A DNA stretch of 60,251 nt from Bacteroidales bacterium (GTDB lineage Bacteria > Bacteroidota > Bacteroidia > Bacteroidales > WCHB1-69). Location: the NCBI GenBank assembly GCA_017617445.1, contig JAFZWE010000013.1:1-60251 (forward strand), read 5' to 3'. Position numbers and translations under genes: made by a program. A model generated the notes under the pieces. It was not told where the DNA came from and searched no databases. It was given only the letters and a program-made list of their open reading frames with translations. This document shows, one piece after another, positions 46,826 to 60,251 of the stretch. Numbering within the stretch: the stretch's first letter is position 1; every line of letters begins with the position of its first letter.

Positions 46826-46950
46826 AAAGTGAATGTCTTGAACTAGACATAATGGCTCCCTTTGTTACCGTTTCATACGGTTTCTGTTTGTGATTTCTTC
46901 CCTCCCTGGGGGGCACATTTCTGGTGTGAAGGGATTGCCAGATGAAAAAT

Positions 46951-47000
46951 TTATCCTAAAATAGAATTTATCCCATTTAGGATTATCCTATTTAGGATAA
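46951..47000 (+). repeat. Tandem TTATCCTA/TAGGATAA palindromes overlapping a promoter
   Basis: A half-site TTATCCTA (46951-46958) is followed by TTTATCCCATTTAGGAT (46968-46984) and a perfect palindrome TTATCCTA-TT-TAGGATAA (46983-47000) that ends 6 bp before the -7 element at 47007, so it spans the expected -33 box. This arrangement looks like an operator. Confidence 0.65.
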
Positions 47001-47006
47001 AAGCAG

Positions 47007-47014
47007 TATTTTTG
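47007..47014 (+). promoter_or_regulatory. Promoter -7 element of the ATPase remnant
   Basis: TATTTTTG directly follows the palindromes. It now drives only the remnant at 47030-47179. Confidence 0.6.
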
Positions 47015-47029
47015 CCGACAAATTACTAA

Positions 47030-47179
47030 AAATCAATACTCAATGAATTCAAGTCCAAGGGGAAAGCCATCTGTGAATCGTTCTTGAGCAGACTGTTGGA
47101 AAAGGATTTTATTACACAGGAAAAGTCTGCATATATGGTCTATGATCCCTTCTTCGGTTTGTGGCTGCAAGGTATTTAA
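47030..47179 (+). pseudogene. C-terminal remnant of an AAA-type (archaeal/DUF4143-like) ATPase
   Basis: The frame from about 47030 to the TAA at 47177-47179 reads Glu-Phe-Lys-Ser-Lys-Gly-Lys-Ala-Ile-Cys, continuing through Leu-Leu-Glu-Lys-Asp-Phe-Ile-Thr to Tyr-Asp-Pro-Phe-Phe-Gly-Leu-Trp-Leu-Gln. The last part matches the end of Bacteroidota AAA ATPases of the archaeal type (a Tyr-x-Val-x-Asp-Pro-Phe-Phe-x-x-Trp-Leu motif). Everything before it (Walker motifs) is missing; the promoter and palindromes are directly in front, so an internal deletion fused the regulatory region to the gene tail. Confidence 0.55.
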
Positions 47180-47225
47180 GAAAGGATTCTAATCGCATCC
47201 TCGCATAATCGTATCCCCGCATTTC

Positions 47226-47301
47226 TTTTTTCCCTTCACGAGGGTTCATATTTCGGCCGTGAAGAGGGTGAATTTTCAGGAAATTTTTGTGCTTTTGCAA
47301 C
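47226..47301 (+). repeat. Repeat module copy R2
   Basis: One of three full copies of a ~75 bp module: T-run, palindrome CCCTT-cacg-AGGG, second palindrome beginning TTCATATTTC, then an A/T-rich stretch and a CTTTTGC end. No gene follows it directly on the same strand; the ATPase tail on the other strand lies next to it. Confidence 0.7.
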
Positions 47302-47317
47302 CTTATGCTCTAAAGCA

Positions 47318-48520
47318 TCAATACAGCAGTCCGAAAAGCCACAATGGAATTTTGTTGCCGTGACCGATTTCCATATCATCAGCGACCACGTAGCTCGCTT
47401 CAATATTTTTGATCTGCGAAAAACCCTTGCTTTTCCCTCCTACTTCAAAAAGCCACTTCCCATCTGCCACTATATCTCCCTTTTCCGGCATGGAAAGTTT
47501 GTGCGCTGTGCCAATCTGAGAGGCGAGATAAGTTTCACGCAAAGTGCCCGCATCGACGTTCGAAGTGAGACAAAACATCAGATTGGTATTGTAAAAGAGG
47601 ATTTTTTCAGGTTTTGTCAACATATTCATTCCATCCGACGATGCATAAAGCCGACGAATCAAGGCCGCCCTGCTCATCAGGTCAAGCAGTTTCACCACAT
47701 TGTTTCTGGAAGATTGCAAGGTGTTGCATAAAGATGAAATGTTCAGTGTATAAGGTGATTGCTCGGCCAATACTGCCAGCAATTGCTTGGCTTTATATAC
47801 AGAATCGTATTCAATATTGCTAACCGATGGTATTTCATTGGTGATAATAGTTTCAATCACTTGTTGCAACCTGTCAAAAAAGCCATCCCCCTCTTCCCGA
47901 TAAAACGGATAGTAGCCCGACTTCAGATACTTTTCAAAATGGTGTAGCACTTTCACATCTGATGTGATTTGTGAAGCCATCACAAAATGGTTGTTTAGAA
48001 TTTCCTCCAACGAAAAGACCGGCAATTCCACCACATGCTCAAGACTCAGGTATTCCCGAAACGAAAGTCCCTCCATCGTATAAAGACGATGTCGGCGTGA
48101 AAGGTCTGCGGATAACGATTCGTCGATTTTTAGCATGGATGAACCCGTTACAACAACATGTAGCTGGGGATAGGAATCATAAATGTTCTTGATTTCTTGC
48201 TGCCATCCTTTGTATTTGTGTACCTCATCCAGAAAAAGATGCGTTCCCCCATGCGTATAATGATATTCTGCCAAATCAAGGATGGAGTGTGTGGCAAACC
48301 ACAAATGGTCAAGCGAGGCATACAGAGCCTTTTCCGCTTTGGGAAATTCTTTCTTGATGTGTTGCAACATCAAGGTCGTTTTACCCACTCCTTTTGCACC
48401 CTTGATCACAATCAACCGATTGTCCCAGTTGATATTATCATATAAATATCGGGTGAATTTCAAATCGGTTTCCGCCAACAGACGGCCATACGCCTTAAAT
48501 AATCGGTCCATATCTATCAT
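47318..48520 (-). CDS. AAA ATPase (AAA_14/DUF4143-type)
   Basis: Start at 48520 (Met-Ile-Asp-Met-Asp); ATG 48511 is an alternative, and a frame extension to 48574 would overlap the promoter. The ~400-residue protein has Walker A Gly-Ala-Lys-Gly-Val-Gly-Lys-Thr-Thr, Walker B Leu-Phe-Leu-Asp-Glu-Val-His, sensor Val-Val-Thr-Gly-Ser-Ser and a C-terminal DUF4143-like half with Leu-Phe-Glu-Val-Gly-Gly-Lys. Proteins of this kind are numerous in Bacteroidota, often in variable regions. Their role is unknown, with DNA- or phage-related and toxin-antitoxin ideas proposed. It has its own promoter with a palindrome. Confidence 0.85.
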   Translation of the reverse strand: MIDMDRLFKAYGRLLAETDLKFTRYLYDNINWDNRLIVIKGAKGVGKTTLMLQHIKKEFPKAEKALYASLDHLWFATHSILDLAEYHYTHGGTHLFLDEVHKYKGWQQEIKNIYDSYPQLHVVVTGSSMLKIDESLSADLSRRHRLYTMEGLSFREYLSLEHVVELPVFSLEEILNNHFVMASQITSDVKVLHHFEKYLKSGYYPFYREEGDGFFDRLQQVIETIITNEIPSVSNIEYDSVYKAKQLLAVLAEQSPYTLNISSLCNTLQSSRNNVVKLLDLMSRAALIRRLYASSDGMNMLTKPEKILFYNTNLMFCLTSNVDAGTLRETYLASQIGTAHKLSMPEKGDIVADGKWLFEVGGKSKGFSQIKNIEASYVVADDMEIGHGNKIPLWLFGLLY

Positions 48521-48533
48521 TTTTAATATGCTG

Positions 48534-48541
48534 CAAAAATA
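48534..48541 (-). promoter_or_regulatory. Promoter -7 element of the AAA ATPase
   Basis: Minus strand TATTTTTG, 13 bp upstream of the start codon, so the mRNA is nearly leaderless. Confidence 0.6.
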
Positions 48542-48544
48542 CAA

Positions 48545-48568
48545 TTTTTTACTTTGAAAAGTAAAAAA
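48545..48568 (-). repeat. Palindrome over the ATPase promoter
   Basis: TTTTTTACTTT-GA-AAAGTAAAAAA, a perfect 11 bp inverted repeat with a 2 bp centre, 3 bp from the -7 element and covering the -33 zone. Position and symmetry are like those of the 46983 and 55860 palindromes, though the sequence differs. Confidence 0.6.
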
Positions 48569-48647
48569 CCACATCTTTTTTTTACTTTAGATTGAAAGGT
48601 TTGTAAAAGCGGAGGTTGAGATATGACTTTCACACCCCGCATCCCAC

Positions 48648-48722
48648 TTTTTTCCCTTCATAAGGGTTCACATTTCTGATGTGAAGGAATAAATATTCAG
48701 GAAATAAGTGTACTTTTGCAAC
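48648..48722 (+). repeat. Repeat module copy R3
   Basis: T-run, palindrome CCCTT-cat-AAGGG, palindrome TTCACAT-TTCTG-ATGTGAA, then A/T-rich DNA and the promoter TACTTTTGC. It directly precedes the giant protein gene and contains its promoter (48711-48718). The -7 element is inside the module, so both palindromes lie upstream of the transcription start. Confidence 0.8.
48711..48718 (+). promoter_or_regulatory. Promoter -7 element of the giant surface protein
   Basis: TACTTTTG at the end of repeat module R3, 37 bp before the start codon at 48756. Confidence 0.6.
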
Positions 48723-48755
48723 TTCTTTTTAAACAGAAAATTGAAAACTCATAAT

Positions 48756-51700
48756 ATGAAAAAAATAGCCTTCTTGATGCTCCTGCTGTGTGCGGGAATG
48801 AATGTTTTGCTGGCACAGATAAATGCTCCGACACTGAACTCACCTGCTGACGGATATGTGTATCCTAACACGGTGAAACCGCTTTTGAAAATCAATTCCG
48901 TTTCGGGCGCAAGTTATTATCTGTTCCACTGGTCGGAGGACCCCACTTTTGCTACTTACAGTTCTCACACCATGTCGTCTTCGTACACGGGATTGAATGT
49001 GAACGGATTGAAATTCGGCACGACGTACTACTGGCGGGTTTATGCCATCACGGCCAACTATGCCGACACTTCTGCCAGCTCGGCAGTGTGGAGCTTCACT
49101 ACTACGGATGCTCCAACTATCACTGCCCCAGCTGACGGGACAGTTCTCACTAACAGCATAATGCCCAATATCCAATGGACAGAAATAGTGGGAGCCACCA
49201 ATTACATTTACCAGTGCGACACCACTCCTTCATTCAATTCATCATTGCGAAGAACCTATACCTTGGGTTATCAGTCAGGAGGAAGCAATCCTCTCAATCT
49301 GAGTTTCGGCAAAACCTACTACCTTCGCATGAGGGCAACCAATACGAATGAGAGCGACACCTCTGCATGGTCGGCGGTGCGAAGTTTCACCACCAGCGAC
49401 AGCATCACACTGGTATCCTTCAATGATCCAAGCCCCACAGCCAATTATTATACCCGGCAGACATTAAGTTGGAAACCCTACCGGGGCGTGACGCAGTACT
49501 TTCTACAATTAGATACCACACCCCATTTTAATTCACCCGTTTTACAACAGATTAACCACACATCTTCCTCCACTTCCACGACCGACAACCAAAGCGTCAT
49601 TATCAACAATATGCGATATGGTTCAATGTATTATTGGCGGGTGCGGGCTGCCAACTATAACGGTACCGACACCTCCAGCTGGTCGGCCACCTGGCAGTTC
49701 CACACTATGGACTTTGTAAATAATACAGACAATACCATCAACAACTCTGATTCAACCCAAAACTACTATACCCGCCAAACTCTTTATTGGAAAAACAACA
49801 GGGGCTCAACAAAATATCTTCTTCAATTGGACACCACCCCCAATTTCAACTCACCCATCCTTCGGGAGATTTATACGACAAATGCCATCGACAACACCAC
49901 CAATGAGCTGAGCACCAAGGTTTATAATATGCTATATGGCACGATGTACTACTATCGAGTATGTGCCATCAACAATGCACCCGATACATCGGGTTGGTCG
50001 GCCACCTGGCAGTTTCACACCATCAACAAGGTTTTCTCTACGTCCAATACCCTCAACGACACCACTCAAACTGAAACCTACTTTACCCGTATCTCGATGA
50101 AATGGGAGAACAACCGTGGTTCAACTCAATATATCCTTCAATTAGACACTACGCCTGATTTCAATTCACCTGTCTTCCGTCAAGTCAATATCACTAACGA
50201 CATAGACGATGAGACCAATGAGTTGAGTACGACAGTCTATAACCTGCTTCATGGGGCAATGTACTACTATAGGATTTGTGCCATCAACAATGCGCCTGAT
50301 ACTTCAGACTGGTCGAACACATGGCAGTTTCACACTAGAGACAAGGTCTTTTTATACAGTCCGGAAAACCAGACCACCAATGCATCTCTTTCCACCACTC
50401 TTCAGTGGAAGAACAATAAAGGTTCGTCTAAATTCATTCTGCAGGTGGACACCTCGACAAACTTCAATTCTTCCTCCCTGCGTGAAATCATCGTTGCATC
50501 ATCCATCACCAATAATGACAGCTACAAATCCAACACACTCAACGATTTGCGATTTGGCAACACCTACTATTGGCGGGTGCGGTCAGTAAATGAGGCTCCC
50601 GATACATCCGGATGGTCTGATGTATGGAGTTTTACCGTCACCAGCAGTGTACCTACTCTTGTCAGTCCCGCGGATGGTTACGTATATCCCAGCACGGTAA
50701 AGCCACTTTTGAGGTTGGAGGCTGTCACAGGTGCAAGCTACTACTTGTTCCATTGGTCGGAGGATCCAACGTTTGCCACCTACAGCTCGTACACCATGTC
50801 GTCTTCGTACACGGGATTGAACGTAAACGGACTGAAATTTGGCACCACCTACTACTGGCGGGTTTATGCTATTACGGACAACTACGCTGACACATCGGCC
50901 AGCTCGGCAGTATGGAGCTTCACCACCACGGATGCACCCACCATCACTGCGCCCAACGATGGAACCGTTCTCACCAACAGCATATCCCCCAATATCCAAT
51001 GGACAGAAATTGTAGGTGCCACCAAGTACCTTTATCAATGCGATACCAGCATGTCGTTCAATTCACCCTTGTTGAGAAACTATACAACAGAATATAGTTC
51101 TGGAGGAAAATACCCTCTCAATCTGAGTTTCGGGAAGGCCTACTATCTGAGAATGAGGGCTACCAACACGAATGAAAGCGACACCTCGGCTTGGTCGGCA
51201 GTTCGAACCTTTTATACCAGCGATGCCCCTGTTTTGAACTCGCCCAGCAACGGGTATGTCTATTCCAGCTCTGTAACCCCCACCTTGAAGTGTGAGACCA
51301 TCAAAAATGCAGGGAAATACATCTTCCAATGGGATACAACGAGCAACTTCAACTCACCCCTTTGCCGAAGTGCGGTGCAAACCAGCACCAGCGTGACCGT
51401 GGGGCCGCTGAAGTTGGGCACCACCTATTACTGGCGTGTGCAGGCCACCAACTACAACGACAGCGACACCTCCAGTTGGTCCACCGTGTGGAGTTTCACC
51501 ACGGGCGGCAGCATCCCCACACTGTCCTCACCCTCCAACGGTTCCACCGCAGTGCGCCTCCGTCCGACCCTCCAGTGGAACAGCGTTTCCAGCTGCAACT
51601 ACTACGACTACGAATGTGACACCACCCCCAACTTCAACTCCACCGAGTTGCAAAGCGGCTCTGTGGCCTCCGGCACCACCAGCATACGCATCAACCAGCT

Positions 51701-54700
51701 GCGTTACGGCACCACCTACTACTGGCGCGTGCGCATCCGTCTGAACAGCGACACCTCCAGCTGGTCCACCGTGTGGCGCTTCACCACAGCCGGCGCCATT
51801 GCGCTCACCTCCCCCTCCAATGGCAGCACCCTCTCGCGTACCATCAAGCCCACCCTGGACTGGGACTACATCAACGACGGCGACTACTACGAATACCAGT
51901 ACGACCTCAGTCCCGACTTCGACTCTCCGGAACTTTCCACCGGCTACGTGGCCGTAGGCACCAGCGAAGTTGAGCTCACCGAGCCTTTGCGTTTTGGAGA
52001 GACCTACTACTGGCGGGTGCGTGAATACACCACCATCGACACCACCCCGTGGAGCGAGACATGGAGTTTCAACACACCCGGTGAAATCGTGTTGGTATCG
52101 CCCGCCAATGGCACCACCCTCACCAACACCATCAATGTAACGTTGGATTGGGACTATATCAGAGGCGGTTTGAACTACCAATACCAGTACGATCTGAGTC
52201 CCGACTTTGATTCACCGGCATTGGTGAACGGCGAAATTGCCGTGGGCACCAGCCAAATAGACATCACCGCACCTCTGCGTTTTGGCGAGACCTACTACTG
52301 GCGGGTGCGCGAGTACACCACCATCGACACCACCCCGTGGAGCGAGACATGGAGTTTCAACACACCCGGTGAAATCGTGCTGGTATCGCCAGCCAACGGT
52401 TCCACCAATGTCGGAGCATCCACTACTTTGGACTGGGACTACATCAGAGGCGGCAGTCTATACGAATACCAGTACGATACTTGCTCCACTTTTGACTCAC
52501 CCGGTCTTGCGACTGGCACGATTGCGGTGGGCACCAGTCAGGTCTCGGTCAGTGGTTTGCGTTTTGGCACCACCTACTATTGGCGGGTGCGCGAGACCAG
52601 CCCAGTGGACACCACCGATTGGTCGGAGGTGTGGCATTTCACCACTACGAACGGCGTGCCCACATTGACCTCCCCCAGCGACGGCTACGTTTATACCAAC
52701 TCAGTAAAAGCCACCGTCTATTGGAACTCCGTCACAGGTGCGGGACATTACATAGTGGCATGGGACACCGTGCCCACCTTTGATTCGCCGTTGTACGAGA
52801 CTTTCACCGCCACAGCATCAAGTATTTATATCACAGAGCTGAATTTCGGCACCACCTATTACTGGAAAGTGTGCTCTATCAACAGCAACGACAGCGACAC
52901 CTCCAGCTGGTCAACGGTTTGGCGGTTCACCACCAGCGATGCACCCGTATTGACCTCGCCGGCCGATGGAACAGCCTTCTCCTCCTATAGCAATTCCCGT
53001 CTTACCGTTTATTGGAACAGCGTAACGGGAGCCGACCATTATATTCTGGAGTGGGACACTGCTGCAACCTTCAACTCTCCGTTATTTGCGACCTTCACCG
53101 CATCAGGTGCAAGTGTCTATATCACAGAGGCAGAACTGCAATATGGCACCACCTACTATTGGCGGGTGTGCGCCATCAACAGCAATGCTCCCGACACCTC
53201 CGGCTGGTCAACGGTTTGGCGGTTCACCACACCTTACCAGCTTACCACTGGACCGACGCTCATATCGCCAGCCAACGATTCTGCCGACATCGACTTCCAA
53301 TCTGTTCTGGCTCTGCAATGGGACACGCTGGCCAACGTCAACGGCTACCGCTACCAAGTGAGTACCAGCAGCGATTTCTCCACCCTGTTTGCGCAGGGCA
53401 CCACCGCACAGACCACCGCCTCCATCCACAATCTCCGTCCCGCCACCAGCTACTATTGGCGGGTGCAGGGATACAATGGCGTGGGCAACTCGGTGTGGTC
53501 GGAGGTGTGGCACTTCACCACCGGCGGCTGTCCGCCCATCGTCACCTCCTTCACCCATGAGATTTGCGAGGGTGAACTTCCGTACCACTATATTAATGGC
53601 GACATCGACACCACCTTCGAGGTCGGCACACCCCAGCTCTCAACTTTTAATTTTCAATTCTCAACTCAATACGGGTGTGACAGCACCGTCACGCTGCACC
53701 TCACCGTTCATCCTGCGGTGACTTCGACAAGCTCAGTCACCGTATGCGAGAGTGAGTTGCCCTACCACTACATGAACGGCGACATCGACACTACCTTTGA
53801 AGTCGGTACACCAAACTTTTCAGTTTTCAATTTTCAATTTTCAACTCAGTACGGGTGTGACAGCACGGTGATACTGACGGTTAACATCAATCAGCCTGTG
53901 GAGAATGAGACTTATATGACAGTATGTGACGAATATGAATGGAACGGCGAAACACTTACGGCTTCGGGAGTTTATACGGCTACTTTTACTGCAGCTAATG
54001 GATGCGATAGCACCGTGACGCTGCACCTCACCATTAATGTTCCGACCGAGAGTGACACCACCGCTACGGCATGCGGCAGCTTCAACTGGCACGGCTACAC
54101 CAATCTCACCGAAAGCGGCGACTACACCGACGTTTTGGAAAATGCCGAGGGCTGCGACAGTATTGTCACACTTCATCTCACCATCAACACACCGACTGAA
54201 AGCGATACTTCCGCCACAGCTTGCGGCAGTTTCAATTGGCATGGTTACACCAACCTCACTGAAAGCGGAGATTACACCGACGTTCTGACCAACGCGGCAG
54301 GTTGTGACAGCATAGTGACGCTGCACCTCACCATTAACGTGCCGACCGAGGGCGACACCACCGCCACGGCTTGCGGTAGCTACAGCTGGCACGGTTACAC
54401 CGACCTCACCGAAAGCGGTGACTACATCGACGTTCTGACCAACGCGGCGGGTTGTGACAGCACAGTGACGCTGCACCTCACCATCAACACACCGACCGAG
54501 GGCGACACCACCGCCACGGCTTGTGGAAGCTTCAACTGGCACGGCTATACCAACCTCACCGAAAGTGGCGATTACACCGACGTCATAGAGAATGCCGCTG
54601 GCTGTGACAGTACGGTGACGCTGCACCTGACCATCAATGTTCCGACAGAGGGCGACACCACCGCCACCGCTTGCGGCAGCTTCAGCTGGCACGGCTACAC

Positions 54701-55817
54701 AAACCTCACCGAAAGTGGCGACTACACTGACGTTTTAACGAATGCGGCTGGCTGCGATAGCACCGTCACGCTGCACCTCACCATTCATCCGCTCCCAGAG
54801 GTGACAATCAGCGGAGAGACCTCCTTCTGCGAGGGCGGCAGCACCACACTGACCGCCTCCGGCGCTGAGACCTACGAATGGAGCACAATGGAATTCGGTG
54901 CAGAGTTTGAGGTTGCCGAAGCCGGGACATACACCGTGATCGGCACCGATGCCAACGGATGTACCAGCACGGCCTCAGTGGAGGTGGTCGTCCACTCCGC
55001 GGTGACTGAGCCTGTCGAAGTCACCATCTGCGAAAACGACCTGCCGTACCACTACATCAACGGCGACATCGACACCACCTTTGAAGTCGGTACACCCAAC
55101 CTTTCAGTTTTCAGTTTTCAATTTTCAACTCAGTATGGGTGTGACAGTGTGGTGACGCTGCATTTGACGGTGAACCATCCTGTGGAGAATGAGACCGATG
55201 TGACGGCATGTGACGAATATGAGTGGAATGGGGAGACGCTGACGGAATCAGGAGACTATACCGCTACGTTTACTGCGGCGAATGGGTGTGATAGTGTGGT
55301 GACGCTGCATTTGACGGTGAACCAGTCGGTGACTTCGACAAGCTCAGTCACCATCTGCGAGAACGACCTGCCGTACCACTACATCAACGGCGACATCGAC
55401 ACCACCTTTGAAGTCGGTACACCAAACCTTTCAATTTTCAGTTTTCAATTTTCAACTCAGTATGGGTGTGATAGTGTGGTGACACTGCATTTAACCATCA
55501 ATCCTTGCGACACAAACGGGATCGATGAGAACGGCATAGTGGATATTACCCTTTACCCGAATCCCACCACGGGGATGGTCAATGTACAATGTACAATGAA
55601 CAATGTACAATTAGGGGATGCGGAAATACAGGTGTTGGATGTGTATGGACGGTTGTTGGATGTTGTGGGCATATCGGACGCACGCATGTCGGACGCACGC
55701 AGTGCGTCCCTACAATCCGTGCAAATCGACCTGTCTGGTTATGCCACGGGCATTTACCTTTTGCGGGTAATCAACGGCGGCAAGGTGATGACGGTGCGGA
55801 AGGTGGTGAAGGAATAA
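48756..55817 (+). CDS. Giant modular surface protein (fibronectin-like array, Cys-Asp-Ser repeats, T9SS domain)
   Basis: Start at Met-Lys-Lys-Ile-Ala (48756); the 16-codon upstream extension overlaps the promoter. 2353 residues. A signal peptide (about 1-21, ends Ala-Gln) leads to sixteen fibronectin-III-like modules (about 25-1590), each ending in a Tyr-Tyr-Trp-Arg-Val ... Trp-x-Phe-Thr-Thr pattern, with modules 1-2 closely repeated by modules 7-8. Next come repeats ending in Gly-Cys-Asp-Ser-Thr-Val-Thr-Leu-His-Leu-Thr-Ile (about 1590-2200), including five 50-residue units, and an Ig/PKD-like segment (about 2010-2080). Last is a T9SS sorting domain (about 2265-2353). No enzymatic motif is visible. 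Likely a surface adhesin or scaffold exported by T9SS. Confidence 0.9.
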   Translation: MKKIAFLMLLLCAGMNVLLAQINAPTLNSPADGYVYPNTVKPLLKINSVSGASYYLFHWSEDPTFATYSSHTMSSSYTGLNVNGLKFGTTYYWRVYAITANYADTSASSAVWSFTTTDAPTITAPADGTVLTNSIMPNIQWTEIVGATNYIYQCDTTPSFNSSLRRTYTLGYQSGGSNPLNLSFGKTYYLRMRATNTNESDTSAWSAVRSFTTSDSITLVSFNDPSPTANYYTRQTLSWKPYRGVTQYFLQLDTTPHFNSPVLQQINHTSSSTSTTDNQSVIINNMRYGSMYYWRVRAANYNGTDTSSWSATWQFHTMDFVNNTDNTINNSDSTQNYYTRQTLYWKNNRGSTKYLLQLDTTPNFNSPILREIYTTNAIDNTTNELSTKVYNMLYGTMYYYRVCAINNAPDTSGWSATWQFHTINKVFSTSNTLNDTTQTETYFTRISMKWENNRGSTQYILQLDTTPDFNSPVFRQVNITNDIDDETNELSTTVYNLLHGAMYYYRICAINNAPDTSDWSNTWQFHTRDKVFLYSPENQTTNASLSTTLQWKNNKGSSKFILQVDTSTNFNSSSLREIIVASSITNNDSYKSNTLNDLRFGNTYYWRVRSVNEAPDTSGWSDVWSFTVTSSVPTLVSPADGYVYPSTVKPLLRLEAVTGASYYLFHWSEDPTFATYSSYTMSSSYTGLNVNGLKFGTTYYWRVYAITDNYADTSASSAVWSFTTTDAPTITAPNDGTVLTNSISPNIQWTEIVGATKYLYQCDTSMSFNSPLLRNYTTEYSSGGKYPLNLSFGKAYYLRMRATNTNESDTSAWSAVRTFYTSDAPVLNSPSNGYVYSSSVTPTLKCETIKNAGKYIFQWDTTSNFNSPLCRSAVQTSTSVTVGPLKLGTTYYWRVQATNYNDSDTSSWSTVWSFTTGGSIPTLSSPSNGSTAVRLRPTLQWNSVSSCNYYDYECDTTPNFNSTELQSGSVASGTTSIRINQLRYGTTYYWRVRIRLNSDTSSWSTVWRFTTAGAIALTSPSNGSTLSRTIKPTLDWDYINDGDYYEYQYDLSPDFDSPELSTGYVAVGTSEVELTEPLRFGETYYWRVREYTTIDTTPWSETWSFNTPGEIVLVSPANGTTLTNTINVTLDWDYIRGGLNYQYQYDLSPDFDSPALVNGEIAVGTSQIDITAPLRFGETYYWRVREYTTIDTTPWSETWSFNTPGEIVLVSPANGSTNVGASTTLDWDYIRGGSLYEYQYDTCSTFDSPGLATGTIAVGTSQVSVSGLRFGTTYYWRVRETSPVDTTDWSEVWHFTTTNGVPTLTSPSDGYVYTNSVKATVYWNSVTGAGHYIVAWDTVPTFDSPLYETFTATASSIYITELNFGTTYYWKVCSINSNDSDTSSWSTVWRFTTSDAPVLTSPADGTAFSSYSNSRLTVYWNSVTGADHYILEWDTAATFNSPLFATFTASGASVYITEAELQYGTTYYWRVCAINSNAPDTSGWSTVWRFTTPYQLTTGPTLISPANDSADIDFQSVLALQWDTLANVNGYRYQVSTSSDFSTLFAQGTTAQTTASIHNLRPATSYYWRVQGYNGVGNSVWSEVWHFTTGGCPPIVTSFTHEICEGELPYHYINGDIDTTFEVGTPQLSTFNFQFSTQYGCDSTVTLHLTVHPAVTSTSSVTVCESELPYHYMNGDIDTTFEVGTPNFSVFNFQFSTQYGCDSTVILTVNINQPVENETYMTVCDEYEWNGETLTASGVYTATFTAANGCDSTVTLHLTINVPTESDTTATACGSFNWHGYTNLTESGDYTDVLENAEGCDSIVTLHLTINTPTESDTSATACGSFNWHGYTNLTESGDYTDVLTNAAGCDSIVTLHLTINVPTEGDTTATACGSYSWHGYTDLTESGDYIDVLTNAAGCDSTVTLHLTINTPTEGDTTATACGSFNWHGYTNLTESGDYTDVIENAAGCDSTVTLHLTINVPTEGDTTATACGSFSWHGYTNLTESGDYTDVLTNAAGCDSTVTLHLTIHPLPEVTISGETSFCEGGSTTLTASGAETYEWSTMEFGAEFEVAEAGTYTVIGTDANGCTSTASVEVVVHSAVTEPVEVTICENDLPYHYINGDIDTTFEVGTPNLSVFSFQFSTQYGCDSVVTLHLTVNHPVENETDVTACDEYEWNGETLTESGDYTATFTAANGCDSVVTLHLTVNQSVTSTSSVTICENDLPYHYINGDIDTTFEVGTPNLSIFSFQFSTQYGCDSVVTLHLTINPCDTNGIDENGIVDITLYPNPTTGMVNVQCTMNNVQLGDAEIQVLDVYGRLLDVVGISDARMSDARSASLQSVQIDLSGYATGIYLLRVINGGKVMTVRKVVKE
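54042..54791 (+). repeat. Five tandem 150 bp units in the giant gene
   Basis: Units begin at 54042, 54192, 54342, 54492 and 54642, each 150 bp (50 codons), encoding Thr-Ala-x-Gly-Ser-x-x-Trp-His-Gly-Tyr plus Gly-Cys-Asp-Ser. Spacing is exact with nucleotide changes mostly at third positions. Confidence 0.9.
55691..55709 (+). repeat. In-frame palindrome GGACGCAC-GCA-GTGCGTCC (copy 1)
   Basis: An 8 bp perfect inverted repeat with a 3 bp loop, preceded by a partial copy at about 55676. It is read as Asp-Ala-Arg-Ser-Ala-Ser inside the T9SS domain. It resembles REP-type intergenic elements. Confidence 0.7.
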
Positions 55818-55845
55818 AAATGCGGGGAATTCTATCAAAAAATCA

Positions 55846-55873
55846 TCCTAACCAGAATCATCCTGATTAGGAT
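55846..55873 (+). repeat. Operator-like ATCCT/AGGAT palindromes before the esterase gene
   Basis: A half-site ATCCTAACCAGAAT is followed by ATCCT-GATT-AGGAT (55860-55873), 8 bp before the -7 element. Same core and position as the palindromes at 46951-47000. Confidence 0.6.
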
Positions 55874-55881
55874 TAAAATTG

Positions 55882-55889
55882 TAGATTTG
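55882..55889 (+). promoter_or_regulatory. Promoter -7 element of the esterase gene
   Basis: TAGATTTG, 41 bp before the start at 55931. Confidence 0.55.
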
Positions 55890-55930
55890 CGTTTGTTAAG
55901 TGGTGAAGAAACAATAAAATTAGCTTACCT

Positions 55931-57484
55931 ATGAAAAAAACAATCTTATTCATATTGCTGCTGGCTTTGAGCCATCCCATTTTTACACAAACCCTCAAAA
56001 ACATCACTTGGGAGGACACCACGCGCCAATATCTGGAATATGTGCCGGAAAGTTATGATGCCAGCACCCCCACACCCGTGGTCTTTATCTTTCACGGACT
56101 GGGAGGTAATATGTACGAAGTGCGGGAAAATGCCGATTTCGACCGGATTGCCGACGCACACGGCTGGATCACCATCACCCCGCAGGCGCTGCCCGACACC
56201 TTCTCCGCAATGGACACGACTATTACGATGAACGCTTGGCATTCCGGCGTCAGTGCCATCGTGGATGGGGATACGATTGTAGCCAGTGAAGGACGGGACG
56301 ACACCGGCCTGATGATGGCCATTCTCGACAGCCTCGCCAGCCGTTACAACATTGACACCAACAACATCTTCTGCACCGGTGTTTCCATGGGAGGCTTCAT
56401 GTCGAACCGAATGGCCATTGAGCATGGCGACCGTATCAAGGCCATCGCCTCCGTGTGCGGCACCATTGGCAACGAGATTGTTTCCTACACGCCTGTCGGC
56501 CACGTGAGTGCGATGCACGTACACGGCACCGCCGACAGCATCGTAACCTACGACGATGGCAATTTCCAATATGGTCTCACCGTGAACGTGGGCCTCGGCG
56601 CGGAGGCCACCGTGGAGTTCTGGCGCAACTACAACCAGTGCTCCGACACCGCCGTGCACACCCTCTACCCTGACATCATGCAGGATGACCGAACCTTTGA
56701 AAGATTTGAATACAACAACGGCATTTTCGGCACAAAAACCGTATTGATCAAGGTGAACGGCGGGCAGCACGAATGGTGCCACGGTCCCTGGCGCGACGTG
56801 GATATCACCGATGAAATCTACGAATTCTTTGCCTCCTGTCTGGGAAATGTCCCCGAGGTAGTCACCACCACCATTGACAATATATCCGACACAAGCGCCA
56901 TTTGTGGTGGAGAGGTCATTGCAGAAGGAAGCGCTGAGGTGACCGCCCGCGGCGTTTGCTGGAGCTCCTCACAGCATCCCACCATCGCCGACATACACAC
57001 CTCCGATTCCATAGGTACAGGCTTTTTTATCAGCACCCTCACCAACCTCACACCCAGCACCACCTACTATGTACGGGCCTACGCCACCAACGAGGTGGGC
57101 ACAGCATACGGCGATGAAGTGTGCTTTGCTACCCGCGAAACCGATACTATTCCAACCGATACCATTCCAACCGATACCACGAATATCACCCATTACGAAA
57201 CCGCCAACCTCCACATCTTCCCCAACCCCACCACGGGGATGGTCAATGTACAATTTACAATGAACAATGTACAATTAGGGAATGGTGAAATTCAGGTGTT
57301 GGATGTGTATGGACGGTTGTTGCAGGTCGTTGGCATATCGGACGCACGCATTTCGGACGCACGCAGTGCGTCCCTACTACAGGCCGTGCAAATCGACCTG
57401 TCGCAATATTCCACGGGCATTTATTTCGTGAGATGGGTGAATGGCGGCAAGGTGATGGCGGTGCGGAAGGTGGTGAAGGAATAA
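55931..57484 (+). CDS. Secreted PHB-depolymerase/feruloyl-esterase-like hydrolase with T9SS domain
   Basis: A 517-residue protein. A signal peptide (about 1-20) is followed by an alpha/beta hydrolase (about 30-300): oxyanion His-Gly-Leu-Gly-Gly (55-59), nucleophile Ser152 in Gly-Val-Ser-Met-Gly-Gly, Asp202 in His-Gly-Thr-Ala-Asp-Ser, His280 in Gly-Gly-Gln-His. This matches the LpqC/PHB-depolymerase family, which includes feruloyl and acetylxylan esterases. A fibronectin-like domain (about 308-400) and a Thr-Asp-Thr-Ile-Pro linker lead to a T9SS domain (about 432-517). That domain is nearly identical in DNA to the end of the giant gene. It probably releases ester groups from plant polymers outside the cell. 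Confidence 0.9.
   Translation: MKKTILFILLLALSHPIFTQTLKNITWEDTTRQYLEYVPESYDASTPTPVVFIFHGLGGNMYEVRENADFDRIADAHGWITITPQALPDTFSAMDTTITMNAWHSGVSAIVDGDTIVASEGRDDTGLMMAILDSLASRYNIDTNNIFCTGVSMGGFMSNRMAIEHGDRIKAIASVCGTIGNEIVSYTPVGHVSAMHVHGTADSIVTYDDGNFQYGLTVNVGLGAEATVEFWRNYNQCSDTAVHTLYPDIMQDDRTFERFEYNNGIFGTKTVLIKVNGGQHEWCHGPWRDVDITDEIYEFFASCLGNVPEVVTTTIDNISDTSAICGGEVIAEGSAEVTARGVCWSSSQHPTIADIHTSDSIGTGFFISTLTNLTPSTTYYVRAYATNEVGTAYGDEVCFATRETDTIPTDTIPTDTTNITHYETANLHIFPNPTTGMVNVQFTMNNVQLGNGEIQVLDVYGRLLQVVGISDARISDARSASLLQAVQIDLSQYSTGIYFVRWVNGGKVMAVRKVVKE
57355..57373 (+). repeat. In-frame palindrome GGACGCAC-GCA-GTGCGTCC (copy 2)
   Basis: Identical palindrome in the matching place of the esterase sorting domain, again read as Asp-Ala-Arg-Ser-Ala-Ser. 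Confidence 0.7.
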
Positions 57485-57540
57485 CACGTGCACCATTCCG
57501 CCGCGAACGAAGTGAGTGGCGGAATCCCCCACCTCCCCAC

Positions 57541-57614
57541 CTTTTTTCCCTTCGTGAGGGTTCATATTTCTGTTGTGAGGGGATAAATTTTCATGGAATA
57601 AGTGTACTTTTGCC
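57541..57614 (+). repeat. Repeat module copy R4
   Basis: T-run, CCCTT-cgtg-AGGG palindrome, TTCATATTTCTGTTGTGAG (imperfect second palindrome), A/T-rich stretch, then TACTTTTGC. It contains a -7 element at 57605-57612. Confidence 0.75.
57605..57612 (+). promoter_or_regulatory. Promoter -7 element in repeat module R4
   Basis: TACTTTTG at the same place of the module as in R3. It lies 244 bp upstream of the second giant gene, leaving room for a long leader or a lost gene. Confidence 0.5.
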
Positions 57615-57855: not shown

Positions 57856-60251
57856 ATGAAAAAGTTTGCCTTCTTAATGCTCCTGCTGTGTGCGGGAATG
57901 AATGTTTTGTTTGCACAATTGACGACACCGCAGCTTTACAGTCCGAGCAACAATTCCACCAATATGGATGTGTCGCAACGGCTATGCGTAACAAAAGTTT
58001 CGGGGGCCAATTACTATGAGATAGAATTGGACACGACCTCCAATTTCGATTCGCCGTTGAAACAGACCTTGAATGCCTCCAGCTATAATTCCTCTTACAG
58101 CTATTACTACACAATAGTCAACAACCTGCTTTACGGCACGAAGTACTATTGGCGGGCCAGATACACAAATTCAACGGACACTTCCAGCTGGTCGGCGGTG
58201 TGGAATTTCACGACTCGTGCTGTGCCGCAGCTTTACACTCCGAGCGACAATTCCACCAATATGGATGTGTCGCAACGTCTTGGCGTAACAAAGCTTTCGG
58301 GAACCAATTACTATGAAATAGAGTTGGACACGACCTCCAATTTCAATTCGCCGATGAAACAGACCTTGGATGCCAACACCTATTACTCCTCTTACGACTA
58401 TTACTACACAACGGTCGGCAATTTGCTTTACGGCACGAAGTACTATTGGCGGGCGCGGTGCGCGCATGCGGCGGACACTTCCGGCTGGTCGGCGGTGCGA
58501 AATTTCACAACTCGTGCCGTGCCGCTGCTTTACATTCCGAGCGACAATTCCACCAATACGGATGTGTCGCTACGGCTTGGCGTAACAAAGCTTTCGGGAA
58601 CCAATTACTATGAAATAGAGTTGGACACGACTTCCAATTTCAATTCGCCGATGAAACAGACCTTGAATGCCGACACCTATTACTCCTCTTACGACTATTA
58701 CTATACAACGGTCAGCAACCTGCTTTACGGAACGAAGTATTATTGGCGTGCGAGGTGTGTGCATGCAGCGGACACTTCCGGCTGGTCGGTGGTGTGGAAT
58801 TTCACGACGGGCGCTAGGCCGCTGCTTTACACTCCGAACAACAATACCACCAACATGGCTGTGACACAACGTCTTTGCGTACAGCAGTTTACGGGTTCCA
58901 ACTACTATGAAATAGAATTGGACACGACCTCCAATTTCGATTCGCCGATGAAACAGACCTTGAATGCCTCCAGCTATAATTCCTCTTACAGCTATTACTA
59001 CACTTCGGTCAGCAACCTGCTTTACGGCACGAAGTACTATTGGCGGGCGCGGTGCGCACACGCGGCGGACACGACGGACTGGTCGGCCGTGTGGAACTTC
59101 ACCACGCAGTTCACACTGACCACTGCCCCCACATTAATCTCGCCGGTTGATGGCGCTACCAACGTTGATGCGCAGAACGTTACGCTGACTTGGGACGCTC
59201 TTGCCAATGCGACCAGCTACCAATATCAGGTCAGTACAACGAGCGATTTCTCAAATTTGGCTGCCAGTGGCACGACAGCCAATCCATACGTGTTTATGGT
59301 TCTGCCGGGCAATGTGACCTACTATTGGCGAGTTCGGGGTAGCGACGGCTTGGGCTTCTCGCCTTGGTCTGTCACCTGGCACTTCTCCTCAATCGTCAAC
59401 TGTGATGATCCCGTTTATACATATCAATATACAACCGACTGTTATTCATATAGTTGGCATGGTAATACCTATACAGAAACGGGCGTTTACTACGACACTT
59501 TGTCCACCCTTTTGGGTTGCGACAGCATCGTCGTACTCAATCTTACGATAACGGGACCGAGCTATGGCACGGATGTTCAGACTGCGTGCAATTCCTATAC
59601 TTGGATAGATGGAAATACCTACACAACCAACAACAACACAGCTACTTATACGCTTGAAGGTGGTGCGTCCAACGGTTGCGACAGCATCGTCGTACTTAAT
59701 CTTACAATAACGGGACCGAGCTATGGCACGGATGTTCAAACTGCCTGCTATTTCTATACTTGGATAGATGGGAATACCTACACAACCAATAACAACACAG
59801 CTACTTACACGCTTGAAGGTGGTGCTTCTAACGGTTGCGACAGTATTGTGACGTTGGATTTGACAATTGTGAACGCAGTTTATGGCACGGATGTTCAGAC
59901 TGCGTGCAATTCCTATACTTGGATAGATGGAAATACCTACACAACCAACAACAACACAGCCACTTATACGCTTGAAGGTGGTGCGTCCAACGGTTGCGAC
60001 AGCATCGTGACGCTGGATTTGACGATTGTGAGCGCGGTTTATGGCACGGATGTTCAGACTGCGTGCGATTCCTATATCTGGATAGATGGAAATACCTATA
60101 CAACCAACAACAACACAGCCACTTATACGCTCGAAGGTGGTGCTTCCAACGGTTGCGACAGCATCGTGACGCTGGATTTGACGATTGTGAGCGCGGTTTA
60201 TGGCACGGATGTTCAGACTGCGTGCGATTCCTATATCTGGATAGATGGAAA
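57856..60251 (+). CDS. Giant modular surface protein 2, N-terminal part (runs off the window)
   Basis: The frame is open from ATG 57856 to the right edge, about 798 codons. The signal peptide (about 1-21) is nearly the same as in the first giant protein (Phe-Leu-Met-Leu-Leu-Leu-Cys-Ala-Gly-Met-Asn-Val-Leu) including at DNA level. Four tandem fibronectin-like modules (about 26-421) plus a fifth, more distant one (about 422-515) each end in Tyr-Tyr-Trp-Arg ... Phe-Thr/Ser. Then come Cys-Asp-Ser repeats and an exact 53-residue tandem array. The end, presumably a T9SS domain, is outside. Paralogue of the 48756 gene, likely by duplication together with the R module. Confidence 0.88.
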   Translation, partial: MKKFAFLMLLLCAGMNVLFAQLTTPQLYSPSNNSTNMDVSQRLCVTKVSGANYYEIELDTTSNFDSPLKQTLNASSYNSSYSYYYTIVNNLLYGTKYYWRARYTNSTDTSSWSAVWNFTTRAVPQLYTPSDNSTNMDVSQRLGVTKLSGTNYYEIELDTTSNFNSPMKQTLDANTYYSSYDYYYTTVGNLLYGTKYYWRARCAHAADTSGWSAVRNFTTRAVPLLYIPSDNSTNTDVSLRLGVTKLSGTNYYEIELDTTSNFNSPMKQTLNADTYYSSYDYYYTTVSNLLYGTKYYWRARCVHAADTSGWSVVWNFTTGARPLLYTPNNNTTNMAVTQRLCVQQFTGSNYYEIELDTTSNFDSPMKQTLNASSYNSSYSYYYTSVSNLLYGTKYYWRARCAHAADTTDWSAVWNFTTQFTLTTAPTLISPVDGATNVDAQNVTLTWDALANATSYQYQVSTTSDFSNLAASGTTANPYVFMVLPGNVTYYWRVRGSDGLGFSPWSVTWHFSSIVNCDDPVYTYQYTTDCYSYSWHGNTYTETGVYYDTLSTLLGCDSIVVLNLTITGPSYGTDVQTACNSYTWIDGNTYTTNNNTATYTLEGGASNGCDSIVVLNLTITGPSYGTDVQTACYFYTWIDGNTYTTNNNTATYTLEGGASNGCDSIVTLDLTIVNAVYGTDVQTACNSYTWIDGNTYTTNNNTATYTLEGGASNGCDSIVTLDLTIVSAVYGTDVQTACDSYIWIDGNTYTTNNNTATYTLEGGASNGCDSIVTLDLTIVSAVYGTDVQTACDSYIWIDG
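57931..59118 (+). repeat. Four tandem 297 bp units
   Basis: Starts at 57931, 58228, 58525 and 58822, exactly 297 bp (99 codons) apart, each one fibronectin-like module of the second giant protein. Units 2 and 3 are the most alike. Confidence 0.85.
59572..60251 (+). repeat. Tandem 159 bp units reaching the window edge
   Basis: Units begin at 59572, 59731, 59890, 60049 and 60208, exactly 159 bp (53 codons) each. They encode Gln-Thr-Ala-Cys ... Tyr-x-Trp-Ile-Asp-Gly-Asn-Thr-Tyr ... Gly-Cys-Asp-Ser-Ile-Val. The last is cut by the edge, so the true copy number is unknown. Confidence 0.9.

Follow-up and report, generated by a model that had tools for sequence, protein, structure and literature searches.

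Background

The question raised by this locus is what a module of about 75 bp, repeated near two giant surface-protein genes, does for the genes behind it. The window analysed here, that is, the whole stretch of 60,251 nt, is contig C30 of a 2.07-Mb Bacteroidales genome that is 80% complete. The first-pass annotation described the module as a double palindrome and offered two readings, a regulon operator or a mobile, REP-like element carrying a promoter. Comparison of sequences across relatives makes it quite likely that the module is the operator-promoter of a regulon under membrane-embedded one-component factors of the LytTR class.

Module copies in the window

Copies were scored with model R1, a sequence-only profile of eight sites from the window's genome. 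Two copies on the + strand are intact, R3 at 48648..48722 (66.5 bits) and R4 at 57541..57614 (66.8 bits), and they share 88% identity over 73 bp. R3 begins with a T-run (48648-48653) and the first palindrome, CCCTTCATAAGGG (48654-48666); its upstream box lies at about 48661-48675, its proximal box at about 48682-48696 and its -7 box, TACTTTTG, at 48711-48718. The boxes of R4 lie at about 57555-57569 and 57576-57590, and its -7 box, again TACTTTTG, at 57605-57612. R2 (47226..47301, + strand, 36.5 bits) had also been called a full copy, which holds for R3 and R4 but not for R2: its core has one extra base, its -7 box has TG for TA, and it is oriented towards the 3' end of an opposite-strand gene, with no plausible gene on its own strand. 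The decayed copy expected near 46896-46940 was found as a core fragment, R1, at 46914..46953 (+ strand, 21.3 bits, E 5e-4 in the whole-genome search), with no promoter at the expected place. Three copies of about 75 bp and one partial copy are present at these places, as the first-pass annotation had it, far above what shuffles give: the second-palindrome pattern has four matches in the window against 0.05 expected, and the pattern of T-run plus first palindrome has three against 0.02.

The ATG of the first giant protein gene (48756..55817, + strand; 2353 aa with a signal-like N-terminus, FN3-like repeats and a Por_Secre_tail) lies 36 nt past the end of R3, so by position R3 is its promoter. 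The second giant protein gene, a paralogue of the first (57856..60251, + strand, continuing beyond the window end), starts 242 nt past R4, and another possible -7-like sequence was seen by eye in between. The earlier placement of R3 before the first giant protein and R4 before its paralogue was correct. The two genes (48840-55800 and 57928-60251) hold many similar in-frame repeats of about 150, 159 and 290-300 bp.

An AAA_14 ATPase gene (47318..48574, - strand; Pfam, with DUF4143 just below cut-off) occupies the interval between R2 and R3. We regard it simply as a neighbour of the modules. Adjoining R1, a short coding stretch at 47040-47180 resembles by eye a C-terminal ATPase remnant, and in genome G005 (L126) two modules stand 1422 bp apart in the arrangement seen around the window's ATPase gene.

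Anatomy of the module and its promoter

Model matches numbered 71, of which 52 were used for a logo and 47 remained once near-duplicates were removed (46 from the window's genus and one from G028). The core consensus of these 47 non-redundant sites, TGAGGGTTCACATTTCTGnTGTGARGGGATAAAT, consists of two boxes with a 21-bp offset. When the core is compared with itself at lags of 10 to 30, letter identity is highest at lag 21 (0.46), followed by lags 22-23 (0.37-0.38), all others giving 0.15-0.32; from this peak we read the core as two copies of a box like TGTGAGGGnTnAnATnT. An additional upstream repeat (CACATTTT or CATATTTT) occurs in 12 of the 47 sites. The constant 21-bp direct repeat also contains a dyad, TTCACAT-n-ATGTGAA. 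The double palindrome had been taken as the basis of the module; although the second palindrome was found, the recurring unit is a direct box repeat every 21-22 bp, and the CCCTT-n-AGGG palindrome exists but is a variant of some copies, present in 10 of the 47 sites.

The spacer from the core to the -7 box, of about 16-17 nt, is variable in sequence, and its length is kept in most sites. Nine copies were inspected; in eight of them the -7 box comes exactly 16 variable bases after a conserved 33-bp block, and C13:10589 has no -7 box at this distance. Among the 47 sites, TAnnTTTG (five or six of its six letters) is found at adjacent model positions in 37, at position 54 in 27 of them and at position 55 in 10, which bears out the remark that the module's end holds the -7 element. 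It is found elsewhere downstream in four more, giving 41 sites with a -7 box downstream of the core, and six have no recognisable one. In Bacteroidota, the -7 consensus of the primary sigma factor is TAnnTTTG (PMC7366714). A TTG in the -33 window is present in two of the 47 sites only. That the palindromes lie upstream of the transcription start and act as DNA is backed by the position of the -7 box in the 41 sites, and a reading of the module as RNA or leader structure was set aside on the same ground.

Distribution of the module and the genes downstream

A BLAST search of the window's genome with R3 gave 11 places at E < 0.001, among 28 at E 10, and model R1 gave 12 matches at E <= 5e-4, among 41 at E 10. 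A match at E <= 0.01 was obtained in 16 of 60 genomes (own included), namely in 11 of 13 within the genus and in five of 47 outside it, three of these five being weak. An exact-pattern scan of 84,980 species genomes, which may omit records of or near the window's own genome, returned 17 stretches, all from MAGs titled Bacteroidales bacterium; eight titles name rumen samples, eight name RUG isolates, which we take to be from rumen, and one names UBA1176. The hosts of the module are uncultured, mostly rumen, Bacteroidales. The search of the genome and its relatives that had been suggested at the outset found copies in the genus and beyond, kept before promoters, and the fear that genome-wide copies might lie at random, with no promoters behind them, is answered by the -7 box behind the core at the great majority of sites.

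Downstream genes were collected for 60 module sites, of which 54 have an ORF. By a crude rule 45 of these 54 ORFs carry a signal peptide, compared to 5 of 32 in window positions 1-46000 (Fisher 6e-10) and 45 of 106 in other loci, a background that was selected for other reasons and is rich in exported proteins (3e-9 versus both backgrounds). Pfam matches were counted for 52 of the 54 proteins, two spurious ORFs behind R2-type copies being left out, with a type IX sorting tail in 16, Fib_succ_major in eight, SprB repeats in four and TonB_C in three. The surmise that copies precede exported or giant-protein genes agrees with both the secreted look of these ORFs and the sorting tails. Among the exceptions are an ECF sigma/head-GIN fusion in G010 and a few proteins that look cytosolic. 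At the former (L095:2419-4344, G010:C11) the module precedes a 642-aa protein having an ECF-like sigma N-terminus and a head-GIN-like C-terminal half.

A candidate regulator linked to the module

A direct repeat of 21 bp points to LytTR or AraC proteins, the latter also using 21-bp direct repeats. The window's genome has four LytTR and two AraC matches. One LytTR relative from this genome has a distribution resembling that of the module, and two of its distant matches (G007 and G034) have a module within a few hundred bp. Searching with the G007 protein gave matches at E < 1e-30 and 39-58% identity in eight further genomes. The module is present in the divergent upstream DNA of 14 of the 15 regulator copies at this threshold that have readable upstream sequence, the query included, or 12 of 13 when the G007 query copy and G034, both noticed beforehand through a nearby module, are set aside; copy G006:C30 has no module upstream. 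A profile search of the GTDB family returned 30 loci, and the 22 of them that come from genomes not yet examined, in genera g8 and g17, all have a model R1 match at E <= 0.014 in the divergent region, although several are near-identical, three (L210, L219 and L223) are weak alone (E 0.004-0.014) and one, G103 (L198), is the RUG.402 locus (L140) that had been fetched earlier because of its module. When loci were aligned on the -7 box, the repeat pattern was visible by eye in 16 of 18, and L219 and L220 could not be anchored. A model built only from eight sites of the window's genome recovers the regulator's divergent promoters in relatives.

In the GTDB family as a whole, at least 36 of 96 module matches have a divergent regulator gene at a distance of 75-256 bp (190-220 bp for 28 of these), compared to 0.018 expected by random placement; the count is a lower bound, as the module list holds all 96 matches and the regulator list the higher-scoring ones and some fragments. 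The module stands next to a divergent regulator in 25 of 40 cases outside the window's genus versus 11 of 56 inside it. Of the 104 family genomes covered by the profile search, 56 have the regulator family at E 1e-20, with up to nine matches each, in genera g1, g8, g17 and g4. It is present in 28 of the 31 module-bearing genomes versus 28 of the 73 without module (Fisher 9e-7, an optimistic value as the genomes are related). When 393 genomes were drawn evenly from the order, three had the regulator family at E 1e-20, and one of these, a weaker match, is outside the window's GTDB family. The 28 genomes in which the family is present and the module is not matched at E 1e-4 are perhaps partly due to a model tuned to the window's genus and to the stricter filters of large searches. 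This linkage suggests that the module is probably bound by the little-known membrane LytTR regulator whose gene it adjoins in relatives.

Architecture and own promoter of the regulator

Two module-linked regulators were scanned with Pfam. The LytTR domain, which is central, scores 33.7-34.6 bits against a curated cut-off of 22.6, winged-helix families (MarR_2, HTH_24, HTH_5 and others, all below cut-off) match C-terminally, and no MHYT domain was found. Twelve aligned regulators are similar across their whole length, and by a simple hydropathy rule two to six hydrophobic segments precede the LytTR domain in all 12, with exactly four in five of them. By the same rule hydrophobic segments and DNA-binding domain lie in one chain, as in a transmembrane one-component regulator, and the operator, a direct repeat with a period of about 21 bp near -35, is of the form expected for a LytTR factor. 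A PDB sequence search with the regulator profile gave no match below E 0.2.

The regulator's own side of the divergent region was analysed over the 160 nt before its start in 33 loci, near-duplicates being left out. At least one box on the regulator strand was found in 29 of them and a box pair 20-24 nt apart in 18, while shuffle controls had means of 3.2 and 0.02 and maxima of 11 and 1, respectively. The boxes are typically placed about 103 and 81 nt before the regulator start.

The regulator in the window's own genome

Whole-genome searches of the window's own assembly found no intact regulator, only a distant relative on contig C22 whose start is in another frame. This LytTR relative, our first lead, was rejected as the regulator: its closest kin stand beside other intergenic repeats, and the module was matched in none of 11 testable loci (L153-L157, L159-L163 and L166; 500 bp upstream, with 474 nt available for one of L161's two genes, and L158 omitted for too little upstream sequence). 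At L133/L166, about 760-1642 on C22, the second-type LytTR gene has its start out of frame and is probably broken or misassembled. On contig C24 of the same genome, two boxes and a 27-codon winged-helix remnant (L033:3350-3466) face the intact module C24:3194; among the seven own-genome stretches inspected, this remnant has 81% identity over 26 residues to a G001 protein. The boxes and the remnant indicate that the regulator gene has been lost at least beside C24:3194. Other copies may lie in the missing fifth of the genome, or the modules may work without the regulator; we infer that a working regulator exists in the window's species and acts there. The regulator family is also absent from two module-bearing genomes, G005 (76% complete) and G017 (98%; one weak partial match), and G010 has a distant member only.

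A possible lipoprotein partner and second-type cassettes

In several loci, drawn from three genera, a small lipoprotein is encoded on the far side of the divergent region. Pfam matched nothing at E 1 in one member, and for two members NCBIfam gave no match that reached its cut-off. The 17 lipoproteins that were aligned have GH..C..C..H..C.G.G..C in common, with varying distances; twelve of them neighbour a module-linked regulator, the other five a second-type LytTR gene, and 16 of the 17 continue to the end. No module lies upstream of the second-type LytTR genes, and this suggests that the cassettes form a set in which operators differ. Their loci (L153, L154, L156, L157, L160, L161 and L163) have the same lipoprotein family and other intergenic repeats, with an 11-bp TTGGGACGAAT-like tandem in L156 and L157 and CGTGCAAAAAC repeats in L160, L161 and L163. 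A doubtful extension is that each cassette is a self-contained surface sensor, in which the small lipoprotein (conserved GH, four further Cys and a His) would be sensed or modulated by the membrane LytTR-winged-helix protein, which would then switch giant type IX surface proteins genome-wide, and that paralogous cassettes with other operators would form parallel insulated circuits. That the lipoprotein is the source of the regulator's signal is a guess.

Discussion

The reading of the module as a regulon operator has in its favour the kept promoter spacing, the secreted gene class and the linkage to the regulator in relatives, all of which were obtained by computation. In the mechanism we propose, the regulator, a protein of about 350 residues that starts with hydrophobic segments and ends in a winged helix, with the LytTR domain for DNA binding in between, would bind as dimers or oligomers to the boxes, whose 21-22 bp period puts them on the same side of the DNA helix. 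With the proximal box in the position of the -33 element, binding, which the sequences make likely, would bring RNA polymerase to the TAnnTTTG -7 box. In relatives, where the regulator gene and one module-driven gene stand head-to-head, the regulator would control itself through the boxes in its own promoter; modules dispersed elsewhere would place further secreted, lipoprotein and type IX genes under it, as R3 and R4 would do for the two giant surface proteins of the window. We infer activation and a membrane signal as parts of this mechanism. Activation is moderately likely, and we prefer it to repression on two grounds, the missing -33 element and the habits of the LytTR family.

The same regulator could be a repressor that occupies the -33 region and keeps polymerase off until it is released by a membrane signal: the proximal box sits at the -33 place, and the operator of CoxC overlaps -35 and CoxC represses (PMC11347149). 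We hold this to be the lesser possibility, although one to be taken seriously: 45 of the 47 sites have no TTG at the -33 place, as expected of promoters needing help, and most LytTR regulators are described as binding upstream of -35 and activating (PMC11347149, PMC6193735). The missing TTG should be read with the caveat that in Flavobacterium johnsoniae a -33 motif likewise could not be identified (PMC7366714).

A different regulator (AraC, Crp/Fnr or a sigma factor) might own the operator, the LytTR gene being merely a frequent target. A module lies 4.7 kb from an AraC gene on contig C39 of the window's own genome, and close copies of this gene's protein (77-100% identity) are found in G000, G001, G003 and G005, all module-bearing; G000 and G005 are module-rich but without the LytTR regulator, and the use of 21-bp direct repeats by AraC proteins fits as well. 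However, no close copy was found in G012 (11 modules), G004, G006, G007, G009 or G010, or outside the genus, and those in G001, G003 and G005 lie on contigs that have no module. With this patchy distribution the C39 AraC protein is disfavoured. The divergent, autoregulated placement at nearly every LytTR copy is typical of a regulator, and together with the fitting LytTR site geometry it is why we take the LytTR gene as the regulator and another owner of the operator as unlikely. The module is probably not a mobile repeat, and that a small REP-like element carries a promoter by chance seems highly improbable. Copies are interspersed, some near contig ends, and those in the window are alike over about 75 bp, T-run included; yet the distance from core to promoter is kept while spacer and flanks vary, the module is in the same place in the divergent promoters of one regulator family in three genera, most ORFs behind it look secreted, and no target-site duplications or movable ends were noticed in the copies read by eye.

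The proposed LytTR regulator and its operator resemble known systems in part. LytTR proteins bind 9-bp direct repeats about 12 bp apart, just upstream of -35 (PMC6193735); CoxC, a membrane LytTR protein, recognises three direct repeats spaced by two helical turns, 18-21 bp, at -35 (PMC11347149), and the module boxes recall this arrangement. In HigX of Caulobacter and CoxC of Afipia membrane helices are fused to LytTR, as in the module-linked regulator, whose hydrophobic segments recall HigX, a protein with four predicted helices that concerns the cell envelope. Unlike these two, the module-linked regulator carries an extra C-terminal winged helix, its promoters are of the Bacteroidota -7 type, its gene is paired head-to-head with another, and the genes under it would form a dispersed regulon of secreted proteins. 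The LytTR Regulatory Systems HdrRM and BrsRM share a LytTR protein, membrane control, direct repeats of 21-bp period and autoregulation (PMC6193735), but their membrane part is a separate inhibitor in one operon, whereas here there is one chain and a divergent neighbour. The hydrophobic segments lie inside the LytTR protein and the divergent neighbour is mostly a secreted protein's gene, which sets the system apart from the HdrRM type. PorX/PorY-SigP, which controls type IX secretion in Porphyromonas, also concerns type IX in Bacteroidales, but it is of another regulator class, and the genes are those of cargo and envelope here and of the machinery there. No such regulator or operator in Bacteroidales was recognised among the entries listed by our literature search. 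The LytTR domain class is known; the candidate regulator, strongly linked to a real regulon operator, shows it in an unusual variant of membrane architecture with two DNA-binding domains.

To our knowledge, how Bacteroidales choose type IX cargo and lipoproteins for display is poorly known. The module provides a recognisable operator, a candidate regulator and a target list, all readable from sequence, with which the regulon can be called in MAGs of the GTDB family.
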